Shown here piece after piece: positions 31,200-60,799 of a DNA stretch of 64,000 nucleotides (position 1 is its first letter; each line of letters opens with the position of its first letter). A program made the translations under genes and the position numbers. The notes beneath the pieces were generated by a model. The model made no database searches and had not been told where the DNA came from. It was given only the letters and a program-made list of their open reading frames with translations. This stretch comes from Utricularia gibba (taxonomy: Eukaryota; Streptophyta; Magnoliopsida; Lamiales; Lentibulariaceae). The stretch is taken from contig NEEC01000009.1 of assembly GCA_002189035.1 (NCBI GenBank), positions 558,001-622,000 of the forward strand, given 5' to 3'.

Positions 31200-34100
31200 A
31201 TGGAGGCGCTTGCACCAGCGATCAAAGGGGTGGGCATTCTCCCGCTTCCGCTTCCTCACTCCCGTCGCTCTCTGCTTCCATTTCGATCTTTCCGGGATAC
31301 CAAACGGAAAGACACCGGGGCTGCTGCCGCCATCGTGATGAAAGTGGGAGCGGGTGTTGATTTTAGTGATCTCGATTGGAAGGCGAAGTATAAGCATGAG
31401 TTTGAGACACGTTTTCGCATTCCGCATATCTCGGACGTGCTTCCCGACGCCGCGTCGTACCCGTCTACCTTCTGTCTGAAAATGAGGTGTTTTTATTTGG
31501 ACTCGGAATTTAGAGTTAGAGAATGGGTTACGTTGTTGAGCTAATGCGTTGAATGTATTTCATTTTGACGATCACCATTGGATGAGCATTTGCTTCGGTT
31601 TTTTTTAAAAAGCTTCTTTTTTGTCCATTCTGTGTTCCCTGTTCCATATGTTTGACTTGAGTTGAGTGTTGGAAGACATCGCTTTCTTGATTCTTACGAG
31701 TGAAAAAACTGCGTGTTTTAGTCGAGCAAGTTAGCAACTTTGTGAGTCTTTGGATCAGTGGGAAAGGAATGTTTTTTTAATTAAAGATTCTTTGACAGGA
31801 CACCTGTAATTCCTGAATTTGAAAGGGGTTATCCGTCAGATGAGGAGTGGCATGGATACATCAACGATAATGACAGAGTCCTGCTAAAGGTTTGATCATG
31901 TTTTGGTAATTAGTGCCTTATGGAACTACCGTTGCTGCTATTAATATTGCATTCTACTTTTAAACTTGGTATGGTCACTTTTTAAACTGAAGTATCTGTT
32001 GGCCCTTTCTTTCAGGTGATAGATTATTCATCTACCGCATCTGCAGGTGCGGAGTGTATAGATCCAGATTGTACATGGGTTGAACAATGGTAACGTTTTC
32101 GACATTTACTAATTCTCATTGTCGAGAAATGCACGCACACTTTGCTGAGACCATGCCTATTTTTTCTGAGACAACTTGGTGGATGATGAGTCTAATAACA
32201 TGCAAATCATTTGATGTGTTGCGATGATATAGAAGATTTTTTTCATGGCTTATATACTCAAGAGTCGGTTCATGTAGAAAATTTCTTGAATTCTTCAGGG
32301 TTCATCGTGCTGGACCCCGAGAGAAAATATTCTTCAAACCCGAGGAAGTTAAAGCAGCTATTGTGACTTGTGGTGGCCTTTGTCCGGGTCTGAATGATGT
32401 CATACGGCAGGTAAGAGTAATATTGATAAAAAGAAGAACATGTCATGATCATGCATCAAGCCTTAGAAAGCAAAAGAACGTATTTTTTTATAGTTCTCTG
32501 AAATTCTTATTTGACATTGATCTTTAAGTTGCTCTTCGCTACTGCAGATAGTCATTACCCTTGAAATCTATGGTGTGGAAAAGATTGTTGGCATTCCTTT
32601 TGGTTATCGGGGGTTTTCCGACAGCAATTTATCTGAGATGCCTGTAAGCATATTGATTCCCAAGAGTTTTCTGAAGTACTCCTCCAACTGACAAATAACT
32701 TATTTTCAGCTATCAAGGAAGGTTGTTCAGAATATCCATCTTTCTGGTGGAAGCTTGCTTGGAGTCTCTCGAGGAGGACAATCAGTCAGTGAGATAGTGG
32801 ACAGCTTGACAGTATGTGCCTAAATTTGTTCCATTTTGGTCCGCACCCTGATTCTTAGCACGCTTGAGATTGCTATGTGCTGTTTTTCCACTTACATAAG
32901 GAATTTTTCAGGAAAGGGGGATCAATATGCTCTTTATTCTTGGGGGAAATGGCACTCATGCTGGTGCCAATGCCATTCATGAGGAGGTACTGGGATTAAC
33001 TTTCATGTTCAATTTACTATTGGTTTCAAATGTGATTTGAATTACATCCACCATGTGGGAAGGATGGAAAAAAAAACTTGATTCTTCTTTTCGTCATGAA
33101 TCAGATATGGTTTGGAATGATTTATAATTTTTGTTTTGTTACTTGTTAGTGCCGTAAAAGAAGAATGAAGGTTTCAGTGGTCGGCGTGCCGAAAACAATA
33201 GACAATGACATTATGCTAATGGACAAAACATTTGGTTTTGATACTGCTGTTGAAGAGGCACAAAGAGCTATCAACTCTGCGTACATTGAGGTTAGTTCAA
33301 TCCATTTTTTTCTTCTTATAGGATTGTCTCCAGGATCATTCTGTCTAGCTGTTAGTTCAGTTTTTTTTTTTTTCAAACTCCATATGTTTGTGATATGATA
33401 GGCTCACAGTGCTTACCGTGGCATTGGAATTGTGAAACTGATGGGTCGCAGCAGTGGCTTTATAGCTATGCATGCATCCCTCGCCAGCGGCCAGATTGAC
33501 ATATGTCTTATTCCAGAGGTACTACATTTGTAGGGAAACTCGCAGTTAAATTTGGTTATTTTCTCCATGCACTACGTGACAGTGTGCTTGTTTGTAGGTT
33601 CCATTTAATCTCCATGGGCCTCATGGGTCTTAAATCACTTGAAGTACCTCCTTGAAAGAAAGGGATCAGCCGTTGTTTGTGTTGCTGAAGGAGCTGGGCA
33701 GGTGACATCATAATCCAAACTTTTCGAACATTGCAATGAGCTCCTAAACTGATCTTGATGATTCACAGAATCTTCTTGAAAAAACTAATGCCAAAGATGC
33801 ATCCGGAAATGTTGTTCTAGGGGATGTTGGTGTTCATATACTAAAGGAGGTATGTTGCTGCACCTGTTTTTCATATTTCCAATTGAAGAATAAACTTGTA
33901 CCCTGAGCATAGTAATGCTTTTGAGCTTCCAGACTAAGAAGTACTTCAAAGATACCGGATCTCCAGCAGATGTAAAATACATCGATCCCACTTACATGAT
34001 TCGTGCATGCCGTGCCAATGCATCAGATGGAATACTTTGCACCGTTCTCGGCCAAAATGCGGTAAGCCAATCTTCTTCATTTGCTGACATTACAACTACA

Positions 34101-34317
34101 TTTGGAGGTTCTTGTAGGAGGCCCCCTGATCCACATTCCATGTTAACAGGTTCATGGTGCATTTGCTGGATACAGCGGAATCACAGTTGGAATATGCAAT
34201 ACTCACTATGTTTATTTCCCTATCCCAGAAGTCATCGCGCAGCCGCGAGTGGTTGATCCCAACAGCCGGATGTGGCACCGTTGCTTAACATCAACAGGGC
34301 AGCCAGACTTCATCTGA
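31200..34317 (+). CDS. PFK5: ATP-dependent 6-phosphofructokinase, plastid PFK5 type
   Basis: PFK phosphorylates fructose-6-phosphate to fructose-1,6-bisphosphate; the PFK4/PFK5 group is plastid-located. Thirteen exons, ~525 codons: 31200-31486, 31799-31889, 32016-32089, 32299-32410, 32548-32643, 32710-32811, 32912-32986, 33150-33290, 33402-33518, 33598-33701, 33769-33849, 33933-34061 and 34150-34317. The first ~50 residues ([20 protein letters not shown]...) are Ser/Arg-rich and acid-poor, like a transit peptide. Key sites are the nucleotide loop [26 protein letters not shown], the catalytic [21 protein letters not shown], and the C-terminus [18 protein letters not shown]. Exon 10 has a single-base break at GGG 33625-33627, which creates a premature TAA at 33631-33633. 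The downstream frame is fully conserved. Confidence 0.95.
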
Positions 34318-35705: not shown

Positions 35706-37112
35706 TCACTCCAATCTCCTTCTCTTGGACTCCTGGCTACTGCTACTCGGCCGAGAATCCAAGCTGCTGCTCTCATCACTTTCATACATCAAGGATGTTG
35801 ATTCCAACACCGTCTTTGGACTCCTCAAATCCCTCGGCTCGTTGTCCTCGTCGGAGTAAGCCAACTGATCTGATATCAGACCTCTCATTCCCTTGGTTGA
35901 CACCATATCTTGGATGAGCTCAACGCACTTCTTCACTCTAATCTGCAAGGAAAAACATGGAGAGTTCAAATGGTAATGATAATACAAGGAAACGGCCTTG
36001 AGGGGACCTGCATTACTAATTACCATGTCTAGTAGTATTCCTGTGGTGGCTGAAGTGAACTTGTCAGTTTCAAGTTCTTGTGTTTCCATTGTGGCATACA
36101 AAGCTACAGCTGCAGCTATTTCCGATGGCCTGAATTCGAGGAACTCTAATCCTAAGTAAAAGAAAAACCAAAACCAAGATCAGCGGAGGCAAAAAGATGT
36201 AATTTTTCTGTCAACATCTCCCATTCTTTTGCCAACCTTCAACCGTGTTAGAGACGATTTGGAGTGATCTCCGGACGGCAGCCATACATGGAGCTTCACC
36301 GCCCTTTGCATTCCGAAGGAAGTAGCCGATGAAATCGAAGGGGGTCAGTGCTTTGATCCTCCATTTAAGTGTACTCATGATCAGTGTCTCCATTCTTTGG
36401 ATGGTTTTTGCGGCAAACAAGAATTTGGGCTGCCCCATCTAACAATGACAGGTTTGATCAATCCTATGAGATGTTCATCGGTCATCACTACTCTACTCTG
36501 AAAAAAAAATCAATTCTTTTTCGTAGCGGTTCCCACCTGTAAATCGACAAGATGGGGAATGGTAACCTCCTCTAGCTTTGCTGCTAGGGACAAGGAGGCC
36601 ACGGCTGTCAACTGGAACAGCCACTTTTTACTGAGTTCCTGTTGAACAGGGATTAAACCCACGTAAGGCATAGATGAACGGACTAGCAAGAAAAATCAAT
36701 AGGAAAACTCCACTTACAGGGGACTCGAGCATTGAAATGAAGCGATCAAAGGTGCGTACTGCCAAATACAAGCATGGATCTCCAAATCTGTAGCGACAAC
36801 AAACCTGCCAAGTTCATCAAAAGCCTTCAGTTCCTTAAACAAATCAGTGAACAAAACTGTTCTAAGGATTGACCTTAAACATCCATTCTAGAGCGTTTCT
36901 CCTCATTCTCTCATCCAACTCCGCCTCCCCGAATCTCGTAACATAATCATTTCTGGGCAAATGCTCCTTTTCCCTCTCGATCATCCAACCCACGGATTCT
37001 TCCCCAAACCCATCACTGAATCCGCTTCCCATTCACCCTCGTCGACAAAGTGCAACCCTTCATCGCAGAGGAGTCCTGCTTCCAGAGAAACGAAACCGGT
37101 TTCCTCGGCCAT
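35706..37112 (-). CDS. D-type cyclin
   Basis: D cyclins activate CDKA and drive G1/S by phosphorylating RBR. Six exons: 36874-37112, 36718-36804, 36537-36638, 36237-36438, 36024-36151 and 35706-35942, ~331 codons. The N-terminus MAEETGFVSLEAGLLCDEGL contains the RBR-binding LxCxE motif (LLCDE). The cyclin box follows with RRNALEWMFKVCCRYRFGD, LYLAVRTFDRFIS, LTAVASLSLAAKLEE and KTIQRMETLIMSTLKWR. The Ser-rich acidic tail (ESDESSSLDSRPSSSSQE) is PEST-like, fitting rapid turnover. A single-base frame break lies at ~37016-37021, between the LxCxE part and the cyclin box (SDGFGEESVGWMIEREKEHL). The subgroup (D2/D4 or D1-like) is not certain. A TATA box (minus-strand TATAAAT) lies at 37238-37244. 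Confidence 0.92.
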
Positions 37113-37420
37113 TGGAAGCAAGCCTTTTTCACGAAAAAGACACAAAACCCAGTAGCAGCATTGCGCTCCTCCTGCAAAGCCCAGTGACAGGAAAGGAGGC
37201 TGTGGGCTGTGAGGGAAGAAAGTGCTGAAATCCTCAGATTTATAGACAGTGAAGCCAAGGGGCGCTGAAGAGCGTGTTGTCTGTGAAAGAGGATCAGGGG
37301 AACAGATTTTGTGTTGTAGCTCTGTATCGCATTTGACCGACCGGTGAATATGCAAGAAATGGAAGGAAACAGACAATTTTCCAGTGGTCGTAAACAAGGC
37401 AACCCAATTTGCATGTAAAT
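37113..37420 (-). promoter_or_regulatory. Cyclin D 5' UTR and core promoter
   Basis: A minus-strand TATAAAT (37238-37244) lies ~126 bp upstream of the chosen ATG, consistent with a ~95-nt leader. Other open frames across this interval are shadows. Confidence 0.5.
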
Positions 37421-43522: not shown

Positions 43523-43532
43523 CTACTTATAG
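43523..43532 (+). promoter_or_regulatory. CArG/TATA-like element, P1 copy (ctacttatag)
   Basis: It sits in the same context as the B and B' copies (ggcggctc before, aaacc after), with two base changes from CTATTTTTAG. Confidence 0.5.
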
Positions 43533-43630
43533 AAACCTTTTTCTTTTCCTAAAGGACTCCACTTGGTGCTCTTGTTCCTTTCTGGGTCATTTTCATTTGG
43601 GTTTCCTTTTACCAGTGCTGTAGTTGTTAT

Positions 43631-45000
43631 GTGGAGGTCAGGATTGGCAAGACAAAACAAATCAAGAAAGAGAGAATTGAAAATCTGAGCTCTCTACAGA
43701 TGGCTTTTTCAAAGAGAAGAAAGAGAAGGGCTTATCAAGAGCTCCCACAATTTTCTCCTCCTCTGAAAGGCTCTTTGAGTTCTTCAGCTCCAGGTTCTCT
43801 ACTCTTGTTTCATCTTTAAACAATTGTGTTTATGAGTAATCTGATTTCATTCAGATCCCTGCGAGAGGAGAAGAAAAAAAAGGGTTTTGTAGTAAGAAGC
43901 TTTCTTTGTTGTTTCTCCTTTCCCCCCTTTTGTTCTGTACGGACGGTACGGACAGGCATGTACTGTTTGCAAACAAAGAAATCAAAATACAAAATGGCGT
44001 TGCTATTTCAAGGTGGAAGTTTGAATTTCTTTTATGCAGTGGGTGCATGCATCATTAACCGTTAATTCCTCTGTAGTTAAGTTAATGCTGACAATTAAGG
44101 TTGAATTGCTTATATTAGAAGATAATAAATCTGTTGTGGCATGATTAGGCCCCCGTAACTCTAAGGAAAATAGCTAATGCTCTCGAGATGTGTGATTTGA
44201 TTCTTAGGCATTTCTTATTGCTGATAACCGAAGTTAATTCCACATGAGGTTTTCTGCTTGTGTTTTGAGAGTTTTATGCTGACAAACACGGAGTAAATTC
44301 AATGCATTTTTTAACATCATGAAGCATGAATGGCATACTTCAGAGGCATGATTTTGCAGTTTCAGGAGCCCGGAGAAGTTGGAGTGACCATGGCGTGATG
44401 TTGAGGTAATAGTGAACGACACCCTAAGGTTTGCCATCCGTTACTTGAAAAAAAGAACAATACGGACATGGTGATATTCATATTGTTAGAAAGCATATCT
44501 CAGGTCCAAGGAGGTAGATTAGTGATTGTCTTGTCATTTTTGTTATGAATTTGAATTTCATACGCATCTTTTCGATCCATCGGATCATGAGGCTGCAACT
44601 TTCTTGAACAGTTGAATGAGTGGCCTAGAAGATGGGCCTCTGAGGTGCCCGTAGTTACACTTGATAATGGTGAACTGGATGAGAAGGTCAGGACACTTGG
44701 ATCTCTTGTCTTCTTAAGACTACTGGTTCTATCATGCTTTATTTGAGTTCCCAACTAGTGAACCCCCCCCCCCCCCCTCTCTCTTGTTCATGAAAAACAA
44801 GTACCCGGTTCATCATGTGAGTGTATGCTTTCACCCTTGAATGTGAACATGAGCCATGGGACAAAATTCAAAATCAGTGTGATCTACATGCTCAGTGATG
44901 TCTTTGTGTTTTTGCTGATTACGTCATAAGAACATGGAAGATGTTTATGTAATCAGGGGTTTTGTTTTCTTTCACCGTGTTTAGGTGGTGGAGACGTCAG
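43631..45000 (+). pseudogene. MADS pseudogene P1 (SVP-like)
   Basis: Exon 1 remnant (~43640-43796) reads RIENLSS, then MAFSKRRK, an internal deletion of the [12 protein letters not shown] part, then a frame-shifted version of the end of the MADS domain, and stops at the conserved ctccag/gt donor. Exon 2 remnant 44325-44405 starts CATGAATGGCATACTTCAGAG, like exon 2 of the intact genes, and ends ttgag/gtaa. Exon 3 remnant begins at 44985 after tttag (VVETSVGSQ). The upstream element and GC-rich flank resemble B-type genes. The K-box exons are absent; instead the sequence runs into the unit-start segment found again at 50028. A C15-type run sits at ~44763-44777. Confidence 0.72.
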
Positions 45001-45294
45001 TCGGGAGCCAGAAAAGCGCGAATACAAGCTGCAAGATCATATCAGCGATGGATTCCGGTCACCGGTATCCGCCAGCGGCGCCGCGATTGCCTAAATGGGG
45101 ACTTTCAAAACACTTTCAGTTCAATCTTTCCCAAGCAAAATCATTAACCGAAATCTCAAACTTACAAGAAACGATCATCCATGAAGATGAAACGGTTTAC
45201 AGTGATCATGATCTTGTTATTTTACAAGATGATTGTTACTATTATTCCAACGGTTGTTTGATCTCGTGCTTCCTTTTTTTTTTCTTCTTTTTGT
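44985..45294 (+). other. Open frame at the duplication-unit start, function unknown
   Basis: A 103-codon frame (about 85 non-repetitive residues, e.g. GSQKSANTSCKIISAMDSGH, PRLPKWGLSKHFQFN, HEDETVYSDHDLVILQDD) follows the P1 exon 3 remnant. A second copy is at 50028-50290, but there the frame is interrupted near 50178. I recognise no family. It may be a captured gene piece. Confidence 0.35.
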
Positions 45295-45579
45295 AACGTA
45301 AGACATTCCACTGAACTAGGAAGATCTTTGTCCAAAGGGGTGTAAAGGCGATCGAACATGTCCGTACAAAAGATCCGATGAAAAACAACATGTATTAATT
45401 TAATGATAATTTAGATAGGCATTCGTGGTTTGTGGAGGTAGAGGCGGATTCTGTGGACGTGAGACCGATGGACAGACAGCTTGCCTGGGGCCTGGGCCTC
45501 TGACAAAATTCATGACTGGATTTCTTTCTTCTCTTCTCATCTCTTCCATTTCTACCTCCACGGAAAGATTCCCTGAGCA

Positions 45580-45589
45580 CTATTTTTAG
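45580..45589 (+). promoter_or_regulatory. CTATTTTTAG element, gene A
   Basis: It matches the MEF2-type CArG pattern C(A/T)8G and lies 70 bp upstream of the A start codon. It may instead serve as the TATA box, as no other TATA-like site is close. Confidence 0.55.
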
Positions 45590-45658
45590 AAAGCCCTTTG
45601 CTTTTCAAAGGTCAATTCGCAACTTCCCTTGTGTTGATCGAGCTCTGCACTACCGAAA

Positions 45659-47460
45659 ATGGCACGAGAAAGGATCAAGATCAAGAGGATCGAAAACCTG
45701 AGCGCCCGACAAGTGACTTTTTCCAAGAGAAGAAAAGGGCTCATCAAGAAGGCCAAAGAGCTCTCAGTTCTCTGCGACGCCGAAGTTGCTCTCATAGTCT
45801 TCTCCTCCACTGGGAAGCTCTTCGAGTTCTCTAGCTCCAGGTGGGTTCATTTGTTTTTCCAACACTAAGTGTGTGCTGTTTTTTTATCTTCATTTTTTAG
45901 AAATTATAGCATCAGATCCTTGGTATAATTAGGGTTCGTCATCTGGAGACCTCTCCTTCTTACATTACCTTGTTTTTCTCAAAGAATATCCCGAGATCTA
46001 GGAATCTGGTTGATGCCCAGCGAGTTCTAAGCACCCATCTGCAAATAGCCATCCATCTACTTAGAAAACAACATTTCTAGCAATCGTAACTGGTAGAAAC
46101 TAGGGGTGTAGAGAAACAAGGTATTGTTTTCAAGCGTAGCAACAGGAATGAAACATAAGTTGTGTTGTAAATCTTGCATCGACTTTCTGCACGTTTGTTT
46201 CAAGTCAAATTGTCAAGTGAACTTTAGAGCTGAAGATTCAACATCTGTGGTAAGGGTGTAACCAAACTCATGGTGCTTCTCTCTGTTGAATCTTAGATAC
46301 TCCATTGCTATTTTGATCTGTGTTCTATTACCATGTACGGCTTTGTTATTACGCATTGTCTGTTGGAATGAGATGAAGCTCAAGTCCACTCTCTTGTTAA
46401 TGTTGTGAAGCATGGATGGTATACTGGAAAGGTATAACTTGCAGTCGAAAAGCCACGAGCTGCAGGCACTTCCGTCTCTCGACCTTCAGGTTTGAAAACT
46501 ACGATTCAGTAGCATTGCAATGTGAGTGGCATACATTTTACACTAGCTACTGATGATCTTGTGGTGATGGCAGCTTGTCATGAGCAGCGATTTCCCCACA
46601 TTAAGCAAACAAGTGGCTGAGAAGACCCGCCTGCTGAGGTAGTGTGCTCGACTTCGCAAACCCTTCTAATTTCTCATGTTGACAACATGGCTATGTCGAC
46701 ACAAGGCGGATGAGAGGGGAGGATCTCCTGGAAATGAGCATACAGGAGTTGCAATCTTTGGAGAAGTCACTAGGAGAAGGATTGGATCGCGTTATCGCAA
46801 AAAAGGTCTGTGCAGCAAATCCATGAATGAAGCTCTTGGGAGAATCAAGGTTGTCTCTTCTGATCCTGGTGTTTTGGCTTTTGACAGAATGAGAGGATTG
46901 AGAAAGAGACAAGTGAGTTACAAGAGAAGGTTAGCACCCTTGATCCCTTTGTTTAAGCAAGACAAGCACTCAATACAAGCTTAAAAAAAGTTTCCCAGAA
47001 TTAGATCTACCTGGTTCATGGCTCACTTTCCATCCCTATGTGCAGATAATCCAGCTTGCAAGAGAGAATGATTTGCTAAGGCAAGAGGTATGCACATCTT
47101 TTGGTTCAAGACAACATCTGTCCACAGGGCATCAACTAACCAGATACGTTAACACCACAGTGCCATTCACTTTTTTCCCCTTTCTTGTCCACAACATTCC
47201 TGTTCAGATGGAGGACATGTCGACCAGTAGCCTGAAAATGGGGACTACATGTTCCGAAACCATAGCTTACGACGAAGTCCCGACGTCGTCCTCGTTTTCC
47301 AAGAGTTCCTCAGACACCTCCCTTACACTAGGGTGACTGATTCCTTCACTCCGTGAAGAAAAGAATCCAAGCCCTCCTCTTCTGACCTCGCTGCTGCTCC
47401 TTCTTTGGTTGCAGGTTGGGTTTAGATGAGACCAGCCGGGCTAGTGGCGGCTCACGCTGA
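45659..47460 (+). CDS. SVP/AGL24/DAM-like MADS-box protein, gene A
   Basis: MIKC-type transcription factors of the STMADS11 clade control flowering time and, as DAM genes, bud dormancy. Eight exons: 45659-45840, 46411-46489, 46574-46638, 46706-46805, 46888-46929, 47046-47087, 47208-47332 and 47415-47460, 226 residues. The MADS domain is [20 protein letters not shown] ... [19 protein letters not shown]. The I region is [18 protein letters not shown]. The K domain is [24 protein letters not shown], continuing to NDLLRQE. The C-terminus is [16 protein letters not shown], with an LxLxL (EAR-like) repeat formed only when the last intron is spliced; read-through stops at 47334-47336 after LTLG. The frame is fully open. 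This is the first copy of the ~5 kb A-B duplication. Confidence 0.9.
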
Positions 47461-48930
47461 TGGATCCGTACCCTGCAGCTGACTCCTTGCTCATGTTGTG
47501 CCCTTTTCTTACATTGGAACTTCCATGTTTGCTGCTTCTAATCAGTGGCTTGCCGTTCCACCTTTAAAATTTAGTGCGTGATTTCCGTTGTGAAAATTAA
47601 AAGCTAATGATATATTTTATTTAAATTATTTATATTTAGATAAATACGTATTATACATTAAAATCATACTTAATACATAGATTTTATAAATATGTGTTTA
47701 AAGTGAATAAAAAAACTAAATCTTGTATGACTACAAAAATTCATGCCGCATTGGAGGTTTGAAAATATGGTTGAATAGGTTACGTAAATATTTCAGAAAT
47801 TATGTGTATTCTTCCATAAATAACAAAAAAAATAGAATAGGAAATATGAAAAATTTCATTTCTGAAATTATATCATTATTAATACATGTGTATTTTTAAA
47901 AATAAACGCATATCAAATATAATCTGTGTTGTATAGACTTAGGGTATCCACATTATGCATGGTCCTCTTTTTTCATTTTTTATTTTTTCTTATTCCACAC
48001 AATAAATTTGCATTGTTGTAGGAATATTAATATTTTTTTTAAAATAGTTTTGCTTTTATACAAATATTTTATATTATCAAATACAAATAATTTTTACTAT
48101 AAATTAAATTGATAAGCAATTCTTATTTTTTTAATAAAATAATAATATTAATTTACATTTTATTATATATACTTAAAAAAATTACATTTTTTTGAGAAAC
48201 AGAATCAAATGGATACGATGAGAATTTGGAGTTCCTATGCTACCAAATGTTTTTGTTCCTTTGGGTTGAATTTATGATTTTAAAACCATGGCTTAGTATT
48301 CAGTTTTTTTTTTAATATTATTGACCAATTGATTATGAAGAGTTAAGTCAATATAGGAGCATTGTTATCTAAAATTTCTTTGTATGATATTGTTATTTTT
48401 GAATGTACAATTCTCATAATTTTACGTTATCTTCTTCTAAAAAAAAAAAAGAGCTCATACAAAATCAAAAAATATATTTTTGTATAAATTGTCTCTCTAT
48501 GTATTAGTAAACAATATGATATTCGACTAAATCATTATATAATTACTTGGACTCATTAGCAATTCTTGACCATATTTATTGACCAATTTATTAAAAGAAA
48601 CTCAAAATGTACTTTTCTGTCAAATTTAAAATGAAAGTTTAAATTTCATAATAAAATTCGAAAAATGGTGACAGGGGCCCAAAGGCAGCCAAATCATTTA
48701 GTGGGAATGACACGGTGGGTGGGGGTGTCATTTGGATTTTTTTGAAAAATACTCACTATGTGTGTGTTAAAAATATCCATCCTGTGTTCAAATTTTTGTA
48801 CGTGGTGTGTGAGAGATAAATCCTTTAATACCATTGATTGCTTATACCATTGATTGCTTGCTTTGCTTGCTCATGGCGTTTGTCAGGTGAATTTTTTTTT
48901 GATTCTCGCGTGTTCTCTCTCCGGCGGCTC
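47461..48930. other. Spacer between A and B (first duplicate copy)
   Basis: This is AT-rich DNA that is closely matched by 52489-53746. No coding frame is seen. B's GC-richer promoter (ctctccggcggctc) begins near 48910. Confidence 0.6.
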
Positions 48931-48940
48931 CTATTTTTAG
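48931..48940 (+). promoter_or_regulatory. CTATTTTTAG element, gene B
   Basis: The same motif as upstream of A, 133 bp before the B start codon, preceded by cggcggctc and followed by aaaccca. Confidence 0.55.
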
Positions 48941-49072
48941 AAACCCACATGGCATCCCCCCTTCCCCCTCAACCCCGGTAGGGCGGTACCTTGCACTTGG
49001 TGGACCTGCTTCTCTCTTCGGCCCTCAATCTTCATCTGCTCTCAATAATAGCTTCTTGTCCGAGAGCCAAAA

Positions 49073-50040
49073 ATGGCGAGGGAGAAGATCAAGATCAGGC
49101 GAATCGATAACTTGAGCGCCCGCCAAGTAACTTTTTCCAAGAGGAGAAAAGGGCTCATCAAGAAAGCCAAGGAGCTTTCGATTCTCTGCGATGCTGATGT
49201 TGGTCTCATCATCTTCTCCTCTACTGGGAAGCTCTCCGAATACTCCAGCTCCAGGTTCCGTACCTCTGTTATCTATTTATTTATTGGTTCTGCCTCAGGC
49301 CCTCAAGGTCTTCTGTTTCTGTCAAAGAAGTTGGACATCGGATCCTTGGGAGAAAAAAGGGTCCTTCTGATGTTTTTGTATCGTGATCTGGAGATATTTC
49401 ATTGTTTTGGCCCTCGATCTTTAGAGATCTGAGAGAGCTGTCCATGTTCCTTAAGTTCCGTACAACTCGGAAACTAAAGACCAAATGGATAAAGAAGGAA
49501 TATACCTTTTTAGTTGCTGCCTGTGCCTGTGGGCTTGTTGCTTTTTTGGTAATTAAAAAAATCATATCTTGATCTGTTCTCTCTAAAATGGTTTTCTTGG
49601 AGCAGTTGAGAGTAAGCACAGTTGAGGCTCTTGATTGGCCTTCTGTAAAACTTTTGTTGTGTTTCAACAAGCTGATAGAACATCTTCTATTGCACTGTTT
49701 TCTTTTTCTCAATCCCTACTTTTCTTCCAATCGCGTTGTTAATGTGACTCTACAATGGCACCACTGCTAATTTGGACTCCTTTGTTGAAATCATGAAGCA
49801 TGGATGATCTTCTTCAAGGGTACAAATTCCTGAAAATCTGTTGCAGCCATGGCTTGATCTTGAGGTAAGCAAGCACCATCTGGCATTCTCTTCTTATTGG
49901 GATTGTGATACGAAGCTGTCACTGAGATTCATATCCTATCCTTCTTGAATCTTCTTGAACGTGCAACAATGGCGGTGGCAGCTCGTTGTGGGCAGCGACT
50001 TCCCCACATTAAGCAAAGAAGTGGCTGGGGAGCCAGAAAA
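49073..50040 (+). pseudogene. Truncated MADS gene B, broken at the duplication junction
   Basis: Exon 1 (49073-49254) is an intact MADS domain identical in type to B' ([40 protein letters not shown]). Exon 2 (49799-49864) is 66 nt instead of 79, a 13-nt deletion that shifts the frame. Exon 3 starts after ggcag at ~49979 ([15 protein letters not shown] in B') and ends abruptly at gtggctg (50021-50027), fused to gggagccag, which is normal unit-start sequence (45003 onward). All K-box exons are missing. A transcript reading into intron 1 would make a MADS domain plus a short tail. No dimerisation K domain is possible. Confidence 0.85.
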
Positions 50041-50591
50041 GCGCGACTACAAGCTGCAAGATCATATCCCGGGATGAATTCCGGTCATCGGAATCCACCA
50101 GCGACGCCGCGATTGCCCAACTGGGGACTTTCAAACCACTTTCAGTTCAATTTTTTCCCAAGCAAAATCATTAACCGAAACCTCTAAAACTTACAAGAAG
50201 CGATCATCCTTGAAGATGAAGCTGTTTACAGCGATCAAGATCTTGTTCTTTTACAAGATTACTCTTATTCTAACGATGGTTTGATCTTGTGCTTCCTTTT
50301 TTTTTCTTTTTGTAATGAAAGACATTCCACTGAACTAGGAAGATCTTGGTCCAAAGGGTGTAAAGGCGATCGAACATGTCCGTACAAAAAGATCCGATGA
50401 AAAAACATATATTAATTTGGTAACTTAGATAGGGATTCGTGGTTTGTGGAGAGGCGAATTCTATGGACGTGAGACCGATCCGATGGACAGACAGCTTGCC
50501 TGGGGCCTGGGCCACTGACAAAATTCATGACTGGATTTCTTCTCCTTCTCATCTCTTCTATTTCTATCTCCACGGAAAGATTCGCTGAGCA

Positions 50592-50601
50592 CTATTTTTA
50601 G
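50592..50601 (+). promoter_or_regulatory. CTATTTTTAG element, gene A'
   Basis: It lies 71 bp upstream of the A' start, in the same context as in A (gagca before, aaagccctttg after). Confidence 0.55.
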
Positions 50602-50671
50602 AAAGCCCTTTGCTTTTCAGAGGTCAATTCTCAACTTCCCTTGTGTTGATCGAGCTCTGCACTACCCAAAA

Positions 50672-52488
50672 ATGGCACGAGAAAGAATCAAGATCAAGAG
50701 GATCGAAAATCTGAGCGCCCGACAAGTGACTTTTTCCAAGAGGAGAAAAGGGCTCATCAAGAAGGCCAAGGAGCTCTCAGTTCTCTGCGACGCCCAAGTT
50801 GCTCTCATAGTCTTCTCCTCCACTGGGAAGCTCTTCGAGTTCTCTAGCTCCAGGTGGGTTCATTTGTTTTTCCAACACTAAGTGTGTGCTGTTTTTTTAT
50901 CTTCATTTTTGAGAAATTATAGCATCAGATCCTTGGTATAATTAGGGTTCGTCATCTGAAGACCTCTCCTTCTTACATTACCTTGTTTTTCTCAAAGAAT
51001 ATCCCCGAGATCTAGGAATCTGGTTGATGCCCAGTGAGTTCTAAGCACCCACCTGCAAATAGGCATCCATCTACTTAGAAAACAAGATTTCTAGCAATCG
51101 TCACTGTTAGAAACTAGGGGTGTAGAGAAATATGGTGCTGTTTTCAAACGCAGCGACTGGAATGAAACGTAAGTTGTGTTGTAAATCTGGCATCGACTTT
51201 CTGCTCGTTTGTTTCAAGTCAAATTGTCAAGTGAACTTTAGAGCTGAAGATTCAACATCTGTGGTAAGTGTCTAATCAAACCCATGGTGCTTCTCTGTGT
51301 TGCATCTTAGATACTCCATTGCTATTGTGATCTGTGTTCTATTACCGTGTACGGCTTTGTTATTACGTATTCTCTGTTGGAATGAGATGAAGCTGAAATC
51401 AATTCTCCTGTTAATGTTGTGAAGCATGGATGGTATACTGGAAAGGTATAACTTGCAGTCGAAAAGCCAAGAGCTGCAGGCACTTCCGTCTCTCGACCTT
51501 CAGGTCTGAAAGCTACGATTCAGTAGCATTGCAATGTGAGTGTCATACATTTCGAACTAGCTACTGATGATCTTGTGGTGATGGCAGCTTGTTATGAGCA
51601 GCGATTTCCCCACATTAAGCAAACAAGTGGCTGAGAAGACCCGCCTACTTAGGTATCGTGCTCTCGTTTGATTTCTCAAACCCTTCTACTTCTCATGTTG
51701 ACAACATGGCTATGTCAACACAAGGCGGATGAGAGGGGAGGATCTCCTGGAAATGGGCATACAGGAGTTGCAGTCTTTGGAGAAGTCGCTAGGAGAAGGA
51801 TTGGATCGCGTTACCGCAAAAAAGGTCTGTGCAGCAAATCCATGAATGAAGCTCTAAGAGAATCATGGTTGTCTCTTCTGATCCTGGTATTTTGGCTTTT
51901 GACAGAATAAGAGGATTGAGAAAGAGACAAGTGAGTTACAAGAGAAGGTTAGGACCCTTGATCCCTTTGTTTAAGCACAAAAAAAGGTTCCCAGAATTCT
52001 ACCTGGTTCATGTCTCCCTTTCCATCCCTATGTGCAGATAATCCAGGTCGCGAGAGAGAATGATTTGCTAAGGCAAGAGGTATATACATGGTGCCATAAT
52101 AATGCTTATTCTGGGATCTTTTGGTTCAAGAAAAAATCTGTCACACAGGGCATCAGCTAACCAGATACATGAACACCACCGTGCCATTCACTTTTTTCCC
52201 CTTTCTTGCACACAACATTCCTGTTCAGATGGAGGACATGTCGACCAGCAGCCTGAAAATGGGGACTACATGTTCCGAAACCATAGCTTACGACGAAGTC
52301 CCGACGTCGTCCTCGTTTTCCAAGAGTTCCTCGGACACCTCCCTTACACTGGCGTGACTGATTCCTTCATCCTTCACTCCGTGAAGAAAAGAATCCAAGC
52401 CCTCCAATTCTGACCTCGCTGCTGCTCCGTATTTGGTTGCAGGTTGGATTTAGACGAGACCAGCCGGGCTAGTGGCGGCTCACGCTGA
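50672..52488 (+). CDS. SVP/AGL24/DAM-like MADS-box protein, gene A'
   Basis: This is the duplicate of A with identical exon sizes: 50672-50853, 51425-51503, 51588-51652, 51725-51824, 51906-51947, 52038-52079, 52229-52353 and 52443-52488, 226 residues, open throughout. Changes from A include Glu to Gln in the MADS domain (LCDAQVAL), His to Gln in exon 2, Ser to Gly (LEMGIQ), Ile to Thr (RVTAKK), Glu to Lys (NKRIEKE) and Leu to Val (QVAREN). The last intron donor context differs (ctggc/gtgactg instead of ctagg/gtgactg). Splicing gives SLTLALDLDET, still an LxLxL series; read-through ends SLTLA. Its neighbour upstream is the truncated B. Confidence 0.9.
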
Positions 52489-53746
52489 TGGATGCGTAGC
52501 CGGGAGCCATTCTGGAGCTGTCTCCTTGCTCATGTTGTGCCCTTCTGTTACCTTGGAACATCCATCTTTGATGCTTCTAATCAGTGTCTTGCCGTTCCAC
52601 CTTTAAAATTTAGTGGGTGATTTCCGTTGTGAAGTATGTGAAAATTAAAAGCTAATGATATATTTTATTTAACTTATTTATATTTAGAAAAATACGTATT
52701 ATACGTTAAAATTATATTTAGTACATAGATTTTATAAATATATCTTATGAATTGATAGATGTGTTTAAAATAAATAAAAAAAACTAAAAAAAAATTCGAG
52801 ATTTGAAATTATGGTTGAATAGGTTATGTATTTCAAAAATTATGCGTCTTCTTCCATAATAACAAAACAAATAGAATAAGAATTTTGAAAAATATCATTT
52901 CTGAAATTATATAACTATTAATACATGTATATTTGTAAAAATAAACGCATCTATCAAATATAATCTGTGTTGTGTAGACTTAGGGTATCCACATTATGCA
53001 TGGTCCTCTTCTTTCGTTTTTTATTTTTTCTTATTCCACATAATCAATTTGCATTGTTGTAGGAATATTAATATATTTTTTAAAATATTTTTGCTTTTAT
53101 AAAAATTAAAACACAAATAATATTTATTATAAAATTAAATTTATAAGCTATTCTTATTTTAATAAAATGCGAATATATAATTTACATTTTATTATATATA
53201 TTTATAAAAAAATACATTTTTCGTGAAACAGAATCATATGGATATGATGAGAATTTAGAGTATGTATGCTACCAAATGTTTTTATTCCTTTGGGTTGAAT
53301 TTATGATTTCAAAACCATGGCTTAGTATTCAATTTTCTTTATTTACCAATTGATTACCAAGAGTTAAGTCGATATGGGAACATTGTGGTACATTTCACAC
53401 ATTGTGGCGCTCGTTAGCAATTATTCCACACCATTTCTTGACCATATTTATTGACCCATTTATTAAAAAAAAACTCAAAAATGGACTTTTGTACTCCATC
53501 CATATATACACACATATATATATGTATATATTTTTAATTTGTAGTAATTTAAAATGGAAGTTTAAATTTCATAATAGAATTCGAAAAATGGTGACAGGGG
53601 CCCAAAGGCAACCGAATCGTTTAGTGGTAATGACACGGTGGGGGTGTCTTTTTTATACCATTGATTGCTTGCTTTGCTTGTTCATGGCGTCTGTCTGTCA
53701 GGGTGAATTGTCTTTTGATTCTCGCGTGTTCTCTCTCCGGCGGCTC
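52489..53746. other. Spacer between A' and B' (second duplicate copy)
   Basis: AT-rich, near-identical to the A-B spacer. It has a short (TA/CA)-rich microsatellite at ~53505-53530 that is absent or shorter in copy 1. No gene is seen. Confidence 0.6.
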
Positions 53747-53756
53747 CTATTTTTAG
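53747..53756 (+). promoter_or_regulatory. CTATTTTTAG element, gene B'
   Basis: It lies 132 bp upstream of the B' start, in the same GC-rich context as B. Confidence 0.55.
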
Positions 53757-53887
53757 AAACCCACATGGCATCCCACCTTCCCCCTCAACCCCGGTAGGGC
53801 GGTACCTTTCACTTGGTGGACCTGCTTCTCCCTTCGGCCCTCATCTCCATCTGCTCTCAATAATAGCTTCTTGTCCGAGAGCCAAAA

Positions 53888-55664
53888 ATGGCGAGGGAGA
53901 AGATCAAGATCAGGCGAATCGATAACTTGAGCGCCCGCCAAGTAACTTTTTCCAAGAGAAGAAAAGGGCTCATCAAGAAAGCCAAGGAGCTTTCGATTCT
54001 CTGCGATGCTGATGTTGGTCTCATCATCTTCTCCTCTACTGGGAAGCTCTCCGAATACTCCAGCACCAGGTTCCGTACCTCTGTTATCTATTTATTTAGA
54101 GGTTCTGCCTCAAGTCTTCTGTTTCTGTCAAAGAAGTTGGACATCGGATCCTTGGGAGAAAAAAGGGTCCTTCTGATGTTTTTGTATCGTGATCTGGAGA
54201 TATTTCATTGTTTTGGCCCTCGATCTTTAGAGATCTGAGAGAGCTGTCCATGTTCCTTAAGATCCGTACAACTCGGAATCTAAAGACCAGATAGATAAGG
54301 AAGGAATATACCTTTTTAGTTGCCGTCTGTGCCTGTGGGTTTGTTGCTTTTTTGGTAATTAAAAAAATCATATCTTGATCTGTTCTCTCTAAAATGGTTT
54401 TCTTGAAGCACTTGAGAGTAAGCACAGTTGCGGCTCTTGATTGGCCTTCTGTAAAACTCTTGTTGTGTTTCAACAAGCTGATGGAACATCTTCTGTAAAA
54501 CTCAATCCCTACTTTTCTTCCAATCGTGTTGTTGGTGTGACTCTACAATGGAAAAGATGATGAAGATGCAAACTCCCTTCTCATCCCACCACTTCTAATT
54601 TGGACTATTTTGTTGAAATCATGAAGCATGGATGATCTTCTTCAAAGGTACAACTTGCAGACCAAGAGTCCCGAAAATCTGTTGCAGCCATGGCTTGATC
54701 TTGAGGTAAGCAAGCCCCATCTGGCATTCTCTTCTTCTTGGGATTGTGATACGAAACTGTCACTAAGATTCATATCCTATCCTTCTTGAATGGGCAACAA
54801 TGGCGGCGGCAGCTCGTTGTGGGCAGCGACTTCCCCACATTAAGCAAAGAAGTGGCTGAGAAAACACATCAACTCAGGTCCTACACCCAAATTCTGCTAG
54901 TTAGTTATTTACCTCATAATTTCATTAAAGATGAGATTTTGACACACGAATGAAATGTAAAGACGACTGAGAGGGGAGAATCTCCAAGGACTTAGCATAG
55001 AAGAGCTGCAGGCGATGGAGAAGACTCTCGGGATCGGATTGGACCGTGTTATAGCGAAGAAGGTATGCTCATCTCACAAACATCGATGAAACCCCTAACA
55101 GAAAAACCAGTTCTTTTGTTATTCAAATTAACACGCCTATTGCTATTCATAGACTGAGAAGATCAAGAAGGAGACCGATGAACTTCAGAAGAAGGTCACG
55201 ATGAAGAGACTAAGCATCTTCGTTTTTAGCATTTTCTTTTCATTTCATGTCTAGTGAAAGAAAGAAAAGAGGGCCCTTTACCAGCACTAGGGAGACATGT
55301 ATGTCTAGGGTTACCCCAGAGCCGTGTGTGCGGTGCGGAAGCGTGTGTTATTCTCTTGAGTTTTACGTGCTTCACTTCTCATTCCATAAATCCTGAGTAT
55401 GTTGCAGGTACTCCGACTCACCGAAGAGAATGATCAACTGAGACGCGAGGTTCGTTTGGACAAGTTTACCAGCCTGTGTGATCTCCTGCTAAGACAACGT
55501 TGTTGTGTTAGGTGTTGGACTCCAAGGGTAGCCAGAAAACGGCTGATGCAAGTTCTGAAACCATGATGTACGACAAAGCCCCCTCCTCGGAATCTCCAAG
55601 CAGTTCCACTCAGCACCTTCAAGATTCCAAGAGCTCATCCGACACCTCTCTTACACTAGGGTGA
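53888..55664 (+). CDS. SVP/AGL24/DAM-like MADS-box protein, gene B'
   Basis: Exons 53888-54069, 54627-54705, 54813-54877, 54963-55062, 55153-55194, 55408-55449 and 55512 onward, all in phase. The MADS domain is [20 protein letters not shown], with [15 protein letters not shown]. The I region is [19 protein letters not shown]. The K domain is [26 protein letters not shown], then [14 protein letters not shown] and [11 protein letters not shown]. The tail [20 protein letters not shown] is followed by a serine-rich segment and [10 protein letters not shown], with a read-through stop at 55662-55664. A gtgagc donor overlaps this stop as in A, but I could not identify the matching last exon with confidence. 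It is the only complete B-type gene. Confidence 0.88.
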
Positions 55665-56185
55665 GCGTTTATTTTTTCTGCTTTTTTTTTTTTTGGAAGA
55701 ACACAGATCTCCTAGGGGTTGTTGACAAATTCGTCTTCCTTCTTCTTCCCCGCAAGATAGGCTGCATTTCGTTTGAAACTTCAAACCAAAGGATCTACCT
55801 GGTCGTGTGACAGAAATTGTAAAAGCAACGTTTGTGTTCAATCTCATGTTCCCCCCTGGATGTAGCCAGTTATCATCAGCAATGGTGGCCTCCGTGCTTG
55901 AAAATGTTCATGTCTGCAAAGTCGCTACTTGTGAATTGGGTGAATTGTAGTTGCATTGGAAGTGAATGGTGGTGGAGAGTGTAACTTTTGTAATGACAAC
56001 AACCCTTTCTCAAACTTCACATCCCAACACTGCTAAAACTTCGAAGGATATTCTGCTGAACAGATCTAAATTGTTTCAGAGAAAAAAAGGCAACATTTCA
56101 AAATCGGGCTACTTGTGATTCATATTGGTGGTAGCTGAGAAGAAGAAGAAACACGGTATGGGGGTGGTCCCGGCCTGGTGCTCGG

Positions 56186-56218
<33 letters not shown>

Positions 56219-56225
56219 CGGAACT
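55665..56225. other. Spacer B' to P2
   Basis: Probably the 3' UTR or last exon of B', then a (CT)n microsatellite at 56190-56217 just upstream of the P2 promoter relic. Confidence 0.5.
56190..56217. repeat. (CT)n microsatellite
   Basis: About 14 uninterrupted CT units directly upstream of the P2 promoter element. Confidence 0.9.
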
Positions 56226-56229
56226 GGCC

Positions 56230-56240
56230 CTATTTTCTAG
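56230..56240 (+). promoter_or_regulatory. CArG/TATA-like element, P2 copy (ctattttctag)
   Basis: An 11-nt variant of the cluster motif followed by aaacccc, ~111 bp upstream of the decayed P2 start. Confidence 0.45.
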
Positions 56241-56350
56241 AAACCCCTTTTAGCTTCTTTCAAGGAACCCCACTTCACAACCTAACGTGACTTCCTGGCT
56301 CAGTCATTTCAAACCTTCTCGTCCGAATCCACGGCCGCCGGTGAACAAAC

Positions 56351-58005
56351 ATGGCAAGGGAAAATGATGAAGATCAGGAAAACTGAAACTCTGAGCGCTC
56401 GCCAGAGAAGAAAAAGGGCTTATTATCAAGAAGGCTAAAGAGCTCCCAGTTCTCTGCCGCGCCCAAGTTGCTCCCCAACAGGGAAGCAGGCTCCTCCTCC
56501 CTTTTGCTAGCCCCAGGTTCCTTCCTTAATCTTTCAGCATTTCACTGTATGCAAGAACACAGTATCGACAAGAAGGGATGGACCAAGGTGGAAATACTCA
56601 GGTTTTGCTGAGATTTTGGTTGTGGAAGGAAGTAAGAAACCAGAACATGATTTTGCCTTGACCTGCTCTCCTTTTTTGTTCTGGTTTCTTACTTCCTTCC
56701 ACAACCAAAATCTCAGCAAAACCTGAGAGTATCTGCATCGTGGCCTATCTCTTCTTGTCAGGTATGTTTGTTTTTTGTTTGCCGGAGTGAAAATCGGTGT
56801 CTCAGATCCATGAGAAATAGGGTTTGGGCTGGAGATTTTATTTCAAGAGGAGATGGATATATTGGAGATCTACCAACAACCTGCCCAATTCTCTTCTTTG
56901 AGAAAATGCTGATGAACTAACTTGGCCAGTATAGCCTCCTTTGTTTTTTATTTTCTTACCAAAAAAATTGTATTTTATTTTTTGAATACAAAAGAGTTAG
57001 ATAGATTTCAAAATTTAAGTGATATTTAACTTATATAATTTTTAAAACATTCAATGAATTAATTATGTTTTCATATCAACTCAAAACATATTTGTTTTGT
57101 GCATAGATACTCTTTAGTAATTCATAAATTGTATTTTCTTTCCTAGCAATTCCAATGCTAAATATTCAAATTACTTGAAAATGTTTGTGTCATGACTCAA
57201 AATGCGGTATTTTTATAATTCCTTTGATTTTCGATGACATTCATTTTGTAATAGCCCCTGAGCTTCTATTCATAACCTCCTTTGACATCACGATCAAGAA
57301 GTTTGATCATGTTTGTAATGTGATACATTTAGTTTGCTAACTTGATTTGGACATGCCTTTTTTTTTTTTATCTAAGATGACTAGAAGAATTGGTAGGATT
57401 TAGCTTTGGAGAAGTCAACAGAATGGTAGCATGAAAATTTCCAAGTTGCTACACATTACAAACTCATGCTACTTGCCATAGTTCATTAACTCCATTTAGG
57501 CTTCTGTTGTTTATGTGATGAAGCATGGATGCTACACTCAAAAGGTATAGTTCGCAATCTGAAAATTGTGAGACAATGGCGTAGCCATGGCTCCACCTCC
57601 AGGGCACTACACCATTCTGAGCTAAGGTAAGATGTAGTGACAGAGGGGAAAGCATTGATACTTGTGGCATCCTTCATGAGGTTCAAAGTGTGTGTTCAAT
57701 TTCCTTTCCTCTGATGTGAATAGTGACTGGGATTGCTTACTTGTCTTTGGTACATGGCTCATGACAAGAGTCTATTTAGACAAGAGATGTGTGTACGGAT
57801 GTAAGAATGTTCCACTCCCTCTTGTTGGATGACCGCATAGGTGTCGGTTAAACTAGCGAGCTCATCGGCAGTTGAAGTCTTTTGTATTTTCCTACATTTT
57901 TCGAGCTCAGGTAGCAGTGAATCAGGTCATTCGGTGGTTTCCGATGGGTTTCCGCCGGAAACACTCCTAGACCTCCTCTGATGCTTCTCTTACAGTGGTG
58001 CATTT
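56351..58005 (+). pseudogene. MADS pseudogene P2 (SVP-like)
   Basis: Exon 1 relic 56351-56516 begins ATGGCAAGGGAAAATGATG (an extra base after MARE), keeps 'ctgagcgctcgccag', has lost the VTFSK part, and hits a stop after the KRAYYQEG-like frame. It ends at a conserved ccag/gt donor. Exon 2 relic is at ~57522-57600 (catggatgctacactcaaaag). A possible last-exon relic at ~57974-58000 (tcctctgatgcttctcttac) matches the SSDTSLT tail. No K-box exons were found. A long inverted repeat sits in its first intron. Confidence 0.7.
56594..56732. repeat. Long inverted repeat (53/55 bp arms, 31-nt loop)
   Basis: Left arm 56594-56646 and right arm 56678-56732 are reverse complements over 53 bases, with only a 2-nt bulge near the base (atact/cagg against ctgagagtat). 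The loop is 56647-56677. A transcript of either strand would fold into a long near-perfect hairpin. Confidence 0.92.
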
Positions 58006-58860
58006 GCTTTGATTATTCGAAAATGTTTTTCCCACAAGCAAATCTTTTTGTTTAATTGGTAACATAACTAATTTGCAAGAACAACTAATATTTGGTAAAA
58101 TATATTTTTAATGCGATTGTTTTTGTCAATTTGTTTTATTATTTTCTTTAGAATTTTTTATGTCTTTTTATTTCTATCTTAAATAGTGAATTGAGTGATG
58201 AATTATTTTTCAAATAAGTAATGATTTTTTTTTATGTGAGCGATTTAATTTGATATTAAATTTATTATCTTGAATTTTCTGAGAAAAAATTATGGAAAAA
58301 AAAATTAAAAATTGCATCTAATAAATAAGAATTAAGATACTGCAGTTCATCAAAAAAGAAAAAAAGGAAAAGTGTGTAGAAATTATTGGAATTAAGTAAC
58401 GAAGTTATAACTTATATTCGAATATATTTATTTAGATTTGTATATTATTTTGGAGTTTGACTTCCGGAAGCATTTAGCCCTAGGGCGCCTCTCGCCGCAT
58501 TCCTGATGGGATGCCAAGCGGAATGATGCTTCGTTCTCGTCTTGAATTTCAGTTTAAGTTCCGATCTGATGAGAACAGAAGGCTTCAACCTGACTAATTC
58601 AAAGGGATAAAGAACAAGACCCACATGCATCAGTGCAGTGCAAAAACGCGTATTGATTAAGTTCCTTCTCATCGACTTGGGATATTCCTCTCAAGGAAGA
58701 TTCCAAGGGCTCCTATTGTGGAAACCCTCTTGGTACTACTTAGTACTTGGCACTCAAACGAACCCCACTTTCTCCATAAGCGCGTCTAGTGTCTTTCACC
58801 TCCAGCAGTCTTATCTGAGCCAAGCTCTCTGTCTACCTGCAGCTGCTTCTTTTTCCTTTT
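58006..58860. other. Spacer P2 to gene C
   Basis: AT-rich to ~58440, then GC-richer promoter-side sequence of C. A weak relative of the cluster motif (ctattgtgg) lies at ~58713-58721, followed by aaaccctc. A minus-strand open frame at 58672-58445 has no recognisable family. Confidence 0.5.
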
Positions 58861-58873
58861 GGGGGGAAAAGAA

Positions 58874-60296
58874 ATGGCAAGGGAGAAGATAAAGATCAAG
58901 CGAATCGATAACTTGAGTGCCCGACAAGTGACTTTTTCGAAGAGGAGAAAAGGGCTCATCAAGAAGGCAAGCGAGCTTTCGGTTCTCTGTGATGCACAAG
59001 TTGCCCTCATAATCTTCTCCTCAACGGGGAAACTCTTCGATTTCTCCAGCTCCAGGTTCCCTTTTATGTATCCCTCTCTGTGACGAAGATTTGCCAACAC
59101 TATACCTTTAGGAGGAGGGTTTTTTTCTTTCTTCTATGTGATCATAATCTGGAGGTATTCCTTGACTTTTTGCTTTTCTACAAAGCCCCAGTCTGGGATC
59201 TGGGTGTGTAGTCAACGTTCCTTGCGTCCGTACAGCCATTTTTAAGCGCTTTCCAAGTAGAAGCCACAGAGAAGCAGAGAGACCTGTCTTTGTTGCATAT
59301 ACTTATTTATTTTTCCTGTGAGGAAAACAGGGTTTTCTTGCAAGTATTGTTGCGCCTTTATTGCAACGCTGTCGTTTGGATTTAGCACAGTTTGCAAAAT
59401 CACAATCATCGCCACTGAAAATCCTAGCAATATTTATCATTTTTGCAATCCTTTAACTTAGGGGGGAAAACATAAACATTTCGTCCAACCATCGAAGTTT
59501 AACCCTTTTTCCTTGTTCATTCCAATATGTTCTGTATGCCCCTACACTACATGAATATTTTTTGTTCATGATGTTGAAGCTGATATGCTCCTTGGTTTCA
59601 TTGTTGTGAAGCATGGATGAAATACTTAAAAGATATCATCTGCATTGCAAGAACTCTAATAACCCGGCGCAGCCTTTACTTGACCTTGAGGTACTTACTA
59701 CCCTCTCATGTGACACAAGCTTTGTCAATGGTGTTTAACAAGCTTGCGGTGGTCTCACAGGTGGTTGTCGGAAGCCACACGCCGACGTTAACCAAAGAAG
59801 TAATGGAGAGAACTCGGCAACTCAGGTAGTCTATCTGCACTCGTTGTTTATTACAAGCTCGTTTTGATGCTCATTTCATGATGATATGGTGATGTTCTGA
59901 GAAGGCGTTTGAGAGTGGAGGATCTCCTGGGACTGAGTGTCGAAGATCTGCACTCCATGGAGAAGTCACTCGGAGCTGGATTGAACCGTATCATATCAAA
60001 GAAGGTAGCCACCGTTTGAATGAGATCAAGCACTTGCAATAGGAAGAAAAAAACACTCTAATTCTAATCCTTGAATTTCGATAGAACCAGAAGATCGAGC
60101 AACGGACTGAGGAACTACAAGAGAAGGTTTGTTTCATGGTACCGAGTATACGAATCTTTTCTACATGACATGTTTCTCCATCCATATGCAGATACTGCAG
60201 CTTACAAAGGGCAATGAACTACTTAAACAAGAGGAATCCCAACTCCGTCTCTGCGGTATCCCCGGCCAAAATCCCTGGCTTCCTTTTACAGTTTGA
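58874..60296 (+). CDS. SVP/AGL24/DAM-like MADS-box protein, gene C, shortened C-terminus
   Basis: Exons 58874-59055, 59612-59690, 59761-59825, 59905-60004, 60085-60126 and 60192-60296 give 190 residues. The MADS domain ([40 protein letters not shown]), the I region ([20 protein letters not shown]) and the K domain ([20 protein letters not shown], then [14 protein letters not shown]) are intact. Exon 6 normally ends caagag/gt. Here it reads aagaggaatcc, so the donor is gone and translation runs on through [20 protein letters not shown] to TGA at 60294-60296. The Ser-rich tail and LxLGL motif are therefore missing. An alternative donor (ctgcg/gtatcc, ~60256) would also stop shortly after. It is a MIK-type factor without the putative repression tail. 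Confidence 0.82.
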
Positions 60297-60750
60297 AAGA
60301 GCAAACTCAAGTAGCAAGCACCATTTACCGCATCCTCTTTATGCAGGCTGATCGAAATCGGAAGCATCTTCTGCCCTGAGAAGGAGGGTCTCACACAATG
60401 GAATCAATATACCTATAGAGACACTGTGATTAGTTGCTACACTGTGGGGTTTGCGCAGATCACCCCAATCTGAATAAGCAGACAGATGTGATTGATTCTA
60501 CACTAATTCCATTAATTTGCAATATGGAGTCTTCAGAGGGGATCCTCGAAAATAGAATGGATGCTAGTTAGAGTGTTTGTGTGTGTGTGTGCTTAGGTAT
60601 TTAAATATAGAGAGGAGGAAGACAACCGAGAGCAGGTGATTTATTCATTAAGTTGATCGTACGGACGGCAAGTGAGACGTGGGGTTAAACCAGTGGCGTT
60701 CAGGGCTGATGTGTCTTTCCCTTTCTGTCCTTTGCTTTCTTGGAGAGCCA

Positions 60751-60760
60751 CTATTTTTAG
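60751..60760 (+). promoter_or_regulatory. Orphan CTATTTTTAG element downstream of C
   Basis: It has the same 10-mer and similar flanks (gagccactatttttagaaa) as in front of A and A', but no MADS exon follows; the sequence becomes AT-rich by 60800. Confidence 0.5.
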
Positions 60761-60799
60761 AAATAAAAGAGAAAAAGGGCGGTGGTCCTCCTCCTCCTC

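Follow-up and report, generated by a model that had tools for sequence, protein, structure and literature searches.

DAM1-6 of Rosaceae are a described tandem set of SVP-like MADS genes. The DAM genes have their origin in the SVP2/AGL24 clade, within Amygdaloideae (PMC9533583), and an EAR motif has been noted in the PmDAMs (PMC5800298). AGL24 of Arabidopsis (AT4G24540) adjoins the O-fucosyltransferase gene AT4G24530 (PMC8582161), whereas Arabidopsis SVP (AT2G22540) lies close to CYCD2;1 (AT2G22490) and to AT2G22480, which is PFK5 (PMC3095283). In Mimulus guttatus, the neighbouring SVP genes H02293, H02296 and H02298 on LG8 are putative flowering-time repressors at a vernalization/photoperiod QTL (PMC4856076). 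An expanded SVP orthogroup of Utricularia gibba, ORTHOMCL11149, was reported in 2015 with five members in an earlier assembly; its expression in flowers was low or absent, and the authors suggested a connection with flowering phenology (PMC4350169).

A window of U. gibba DNA (the whole stretch analysed, 64,000 nucleotides) on contig C505 holds a tandem cluster of such genes, and genome-wide searches covered ~100.1 Mb in 516 contigs. We consider it probable that the locus is an SVP1-type tandem array with types that predate the last genome doubling, shaped by differential loss and by a later ~5-kb duplication of A and B, and with products that would act in SVP-like repression. None of the literature searched, which covered few subscription journals, described the tandem layout, the partner array, the relics or an SVP1-locus assignment.

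Composition and family membership of the array

Hand splicing with GT-AG borders and tblastn placed seven MADS loci at 43523-60760, all on the + strand and all of the SVP/STMADS11 type, in agreement with a first-pass annotation of the sequence (Table 1). They comprise the full MIKC genes A, A' and B', gene C without its C-terminal exons, the pseudogene B and the relics P1 and P2. The full genes have an eight-exon pattern in common (182/79/65/100/42/42/125-149/~46 nt), which in A and A' reads 182/79/65/100/42/42/125/46 nt with GT-AG borders and no stops. The Pfam domains SRF-TF and K-box scored above cut-off in A, A', B' and C, the MADS plus K-box architecture. The top PDB match of B' was the K domain of Arabidopsis SVP (7xgs) with 88.7 bits, as against 26 and 24 bits for the K domains of SEP3 and AG. 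In a 74-row MADS-domain tree, with rows that included 51 further MADS genes of the U. gibba genome and Arabidopsis sequences, the array fell inside STMADS11 with SVP and AGL24 as against all other MIKC clades (support 96/94). The tree and the SVP K-domain match rule out a placement outside STMADS11, and by these sequence comparisons the MADS/SVP identity of the loci is far beyond chance. The STMADS11 clade also contains C413:752092, C1:7955926, C409:1105099 and C1:4644211.

The first-pass annotation had counted four complete or near-complete genes. This description fits A, A' and B'; C has no C domain and thus is not near-complete. The frame of C runs on into a stop because the GT splice donor of exon 6 is lost, and exons 7 and 8 were not found behind exon 6. 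The SSDTSLxLGL end present in A, A' and B' is absent from C, and the three full genes end in LxLxL stretches (LTLGLGL, LTLALDL and LTLGL). The truncated gene and the two relics had been recognized correctly: the exon-2 deletion and the exon 3 cut by a duplication joint make B a pseudogene, and P1 and P2 are decayed.

Table 1. Features of the array and its syntenic anchors (window coordinates)
Feature	Position	Strand	Description and basis
PFK gene	31200..34253	+	Pfam PFK 6.7e-13 on one exon; SVP1-locus syntenic anchor
D-type cyclin, CYCD2/4-like	35709..37150	-	Cyclin_C 2.5e-8; syntenic anchor
Relic P1	43639-45100	+	exon 1 43639-43795, exon 2 ~44319-44410; tblastn
P1, probable exon-7 relic	~44985-45100	+	tblastn
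Duplicated unit 1: A and the truncated B	45004..50027	+	comparison with unit 2
Gene A	45659-47460	+	8 exons, 226 aa, C-terminal LTLGLGL; gene model, Pfam
Pseudogene B	49073 to ~50077	+	intact exon 1, exon 2 with a 13-nt deletion, cut exon 3
Duplicated unit 2: A' and the 5' part of B'	50028..54858	+	comparison with unit 1
Gene A'	50672-52488	+	8 exons, 226 aa; gene model
Gene B'	53888 to ~55785	+	8 exons, 224 aa, C-terminal LTLGL; gene model, PDB, Pfam
Relic P2	56229-57602	+	exon 1 56351-56517, exon 2 ~57520-57602; tblastn
Gene C	58874-60296	+	exons 1-6, 190 aa; C-terminal LxLxL absent
CTATTTTTAGAAA motif	60751..60764	+	resembles motifs upstream of other copies; orphan

A CTATTTTTAGAAA-like element lies ~80-140 bp upstream of most copies and is possibly a CArG-like or TATA-like box. 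Sites were located at 45580, 48931, 50592, 53747, 56230 and 60751 of the window and at local position 16254 of the C402 region described below (C402:1174254). No gene follows the 60751 site within the window, and the site has no similarity to the sequence upstream of the C402 gene cY; this orphan may be a chance occurrence.

Other MADS clusters were seen in the genome. Four MADS exons with FLC-like MADS domains lie on one strand within 10.6 kb at C2:1183943-1194548; they probably form a tandem FLC/MAF-like array and recall the one on Mimulus LG11. Smaller clusters with weaker MADS matches, at C1:2063449-2074918 and C411:224272-228383, are probably type I genes. The cox1 of this genome has two contiguous cysteines (SLLLLCCSALV); contiguous cysteines in COX have been described in Utricularia and in some Genlisea (PMC3141634).

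Tandem duplication of the A-B unit

Units 1 and 2 are 91-92% identical (92% without gaps), with 47 gap runs. At the joint (~50027), exon 3 of B runs into sequence from the 3' part of P1, whose usual place is 5' of A. Judged from this joint and the similarity of the units, the A-B-A'-B' order is the product of a single ~5.0-kb tandem duplication of [A-B] whose joint cut B in exon 3, and the one event accounts for both this order and the truncated B. The alternating A and B types of the first-pass annotation thus come down to one duplication. The two units are of similar length, which would also suit haplotigs or a misassembly of one locus. An artefact of this kind is extremely improbable: both units lie on one 3.45-Mb contig, no other contig is equally similar, the units differ by the identity and gap runs given above, the joint falls inside an exon, and the homologous array on C402 has the same gene order. 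The tandem copies are thus not haplotigs.

The synonymous divergence of A and A' (Ks 0.10) was compared with that of A and its C402 counterpart cA (Ks 0.89). Synonymous changes between A and A' were found at 14 of 151 sites and non-synonymous changes at 9 of 527 (Fisher p = 5e-5; Ka/Ks ~0.17). The higher rate of synonymous change per site indicates that the copies stayed constrained. A and A' are the sole recent pair, and both have been under purifying selection since the duplication.

A partner array and the age of the copy types

The whole-genome search revealed a second array at C402:1166.6-1179.8k. Its members are the relics R0 and R1, gene cA, relic R2 and genes cX and cY, with the genes modelled over exons 1-7, and the two collinear arrays hold seven intact or nearly intact copies. 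The left flanks on C505 and C402 are collinear for a Rab gene, a ribosomal protein gene, a 14-3-3 gene, ZYP1 and SCAI relics and a glycine-rich gene. The right-flank genes at C505:624-626k and 638-640k are also collinear, and C402:1147-1187k is the counterpart region of both flanks. Flank Ks values between C505 and C402 were 0.36-0.78. Collinearity with Ks in this range is the pattern left by whole-genome duplication, which identifies the C402 array, on gene order and divergence, as the whole-genome-duplication partner of the C505 array. The SCAI gene of the window (18212-18808) has a decayed partner at C402:1153716-1154033, and ZYP1 likewise seems to be a relic on C402. C402:1138-1196k yielded no partners of PFK, the cyclin or DEAH11.

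Once the MADS exon was masked, the top cross-array pairs were A-cA (431 bits), C-cX (261 bits) and B-R2 (140 bits), and P1-R1 was weak. P1 and R1 grouped in the exon-1 tree (81/80); exon-only trees of the relics left most groupings without resolution. The A+A'+cA clade had support of 100/99, and support for C-cX was only 77/81. Independent expansion of the two arrays, each as its own clade, was rejected (p-AU 0.0003). The cross-array pairs and the tree suggest that P1-, A-, B- and C-types most likely predate the genome doubling, which makes the array old and its turnover continuing. The sequence upstream of P2 (56229-56331) is 75% identical to that upstream of cX, although cX is better matched by the gene body of C. 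The B type survives on C505 only and cY on C402 only. An ortholog of cY was not found in the window at 60.3-64 kb or in C505:622-640k; cY may be a B-like type.

The proposed history starts with tandem copying at the SVP locus, which would have given at least the P1-, A-, B- and C-types before the last whole-genome duplication. The daughter arrays on C505 and C402 would then have lost different members, and the later ~5-kb tandem duplication on C505 would have copied A and B and truncated the first B. The birth-and-death turnover proposed in the first-pass annotation is supported. "Species-specific", another term used there, is only partly apt, as most copy types predate the whole-genome duplication. 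The same evidence bears on the idea of a recent expansion, specific to the species and selected for flowering phenology. A U. gibba-specific expansion has been proposed (PMC4350169), and A and A' are both recent and constrained; however, most types are older than the genome duplication, and the recent event gave A' and a second B, with one B copy now dead. We regard such a selected recent expansion as rather unlikely.

Decay is widespread in the arrays. B, P1 and P2 on C505 and R0, R1 and R2 on C402 are dead, and C has lost its C-terminus. C also evolved faster than cX, with chi2 from 2.3 to 8.9 depending on the outgroup; unique changes numbered 18 in C and 4 in cX with C413 as outgroup, and the difference was weaker with other outgroups. 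The low or no flower expression mentioned for the orthogroup (PMC4350169) also counts against the preferred reading. An array that is mostly decaying, kept by chance and left with one or two working genes is nevertheless unlikely, as Ka/Ks between intact copies was 0.11-0.26 and A and A' remained constrained after duplication.

Locus assignment, proposed function and known systems

The array has a PFK gene and a D-type cyclin gene as neighbours. The PFK N-terminus is plastid PFK4/5-like by eye, and the cyclin stretches FLEFRPSEIAAAVAL and SPxxVLExxxLxYxSDE resemble those of CYCD2/4. PFK and CYCD2-like neighbours are those of the AtSVP locus, an agreement of two anchors whose subtypes are probable. 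The SVP-like gene on C413 adjoins an O-fucosyltransferase gene, its only AGL24-type synteny; inspection by eye out to 10 kb from it revealed neither CPR nor AP4M, which also neighbour AGL24. Array proteins matched AtSVP at 93-107 of 170 positions and AGL24 at 90-95, and the array formed its own long branch in an AtSVP/AGL24 tree, without firm placement in either subclade. The K domain of the AtSVP sequence used in that tree agrees with PDB chain 7xgs. The related STMADS11 genes C1:7955926 and C413:752092 have MADS domains that are 80% identical and are maybe a whole-genome-duplication pair at an AGL24-type locus.

The SVP-type neighbours of the array, the AGL24-type C413 gene and the origin of DAM in SVP2/AGL24 together point to an expansion that most likely sits at the SVP1 locus and is independent of DAM; two neighbours carry this assignment for the array, and a single one does so for the C413 gene. 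The first-pass annotation had left open whether the expansion was independent of DAM or homologous to it; the PFK and CYCD2-like neighbours favour independence, and the O-fucosyltransferase beside the C413 gene speaks against homology. A true DAM equivalent would control dormancy, for example of winter buds, through homology to the Rosaceae genes or functional convergence. The STMADS11 clade and the tandem architecture are common to both systems, as is a C-terminal EAR-like motif like that of the PmDAMs (PMC5800298). Against this, DAM originated in SVP2/AGL24 within Amygdaloideae (PMC9533583), and the neighbours of the locus expanded in U. gibba are of the SVP1 type, with the AGL24-like gene separate on C413, so that dormancy control of this kind is very unlikely.

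From the domain structure we infer, by analogy with SVP, repression, its targets and a role for C. A, A' and B' most likely bind CArG boxes as dimers through their M, I and K domains, as SVP does. They would repress flowering or growth-phase genes, presumably aided by the C-terminal LxLxL (EAR-like) stretch. C retains the M, I and K domains but not the tail; it might bind yet fail to repress, or be a pseudogene in the making, and could compete for partners or be decaying. Flowering repression is a better guess for the array than a dormancy role.

These results suggest that tandem expansion is also open to the sister paralogue of the DAM progenitor. They further provide a clean natural example in which two arrays paired by whole-genome duplication have lost different members. 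A wider possibility, which we hold to be doubtful, is an old SVP1-locus array shared across Lamiales and identical with the Mimulus LG8 QTL array, in which SVP1 would take roughly the part of DAM and C would be a tail-less competitor. If true, SVP1 in Lamiales plays the evolutionary part of SVP2/DAM in Rosaceae, and an array common to Mimulus would tie the bladderwort locus to a known flowering-time QTL. Otherwise the array illustrates, at good resolution, the ordinary turnover of a gene family within an expansion already noted.

Members of ORTHOMCL11149 are very probably the same genes as those of the arrays described here. The main text of that report (PMC4350169) has no array, whole-genome-duplication partner or relics, whereas the present analysis found two collinear arrays with seven copies that are intact or nearly so. 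The Mimulus guttatus LG8 genes are likewise adjacent SVP-like duplicates in Lamiales (PMC4856076). Arabidopsis SVP shares the MIKC layout, the top K-domain match and the near neighbours PFK5 and CYCD2;1, but is a single gene, and its MADS domain has RRRGLFKKAEE, a stretch that is altered in the U. gibba array. Like Rosaceae DAM1-6, the C505 array is a tandem array of SVP-like STMADS11 genes with a C-terminal EAR-like motif and a history of tandem and whole-genome duplication; DAM belongs to SVP2/AGL24 and the U. gibba array to an SVP1-type locus. The U. gibba array thus seems to resemble the peach dormancy-gene cluster yet to have arisen separately, from the sister gene.
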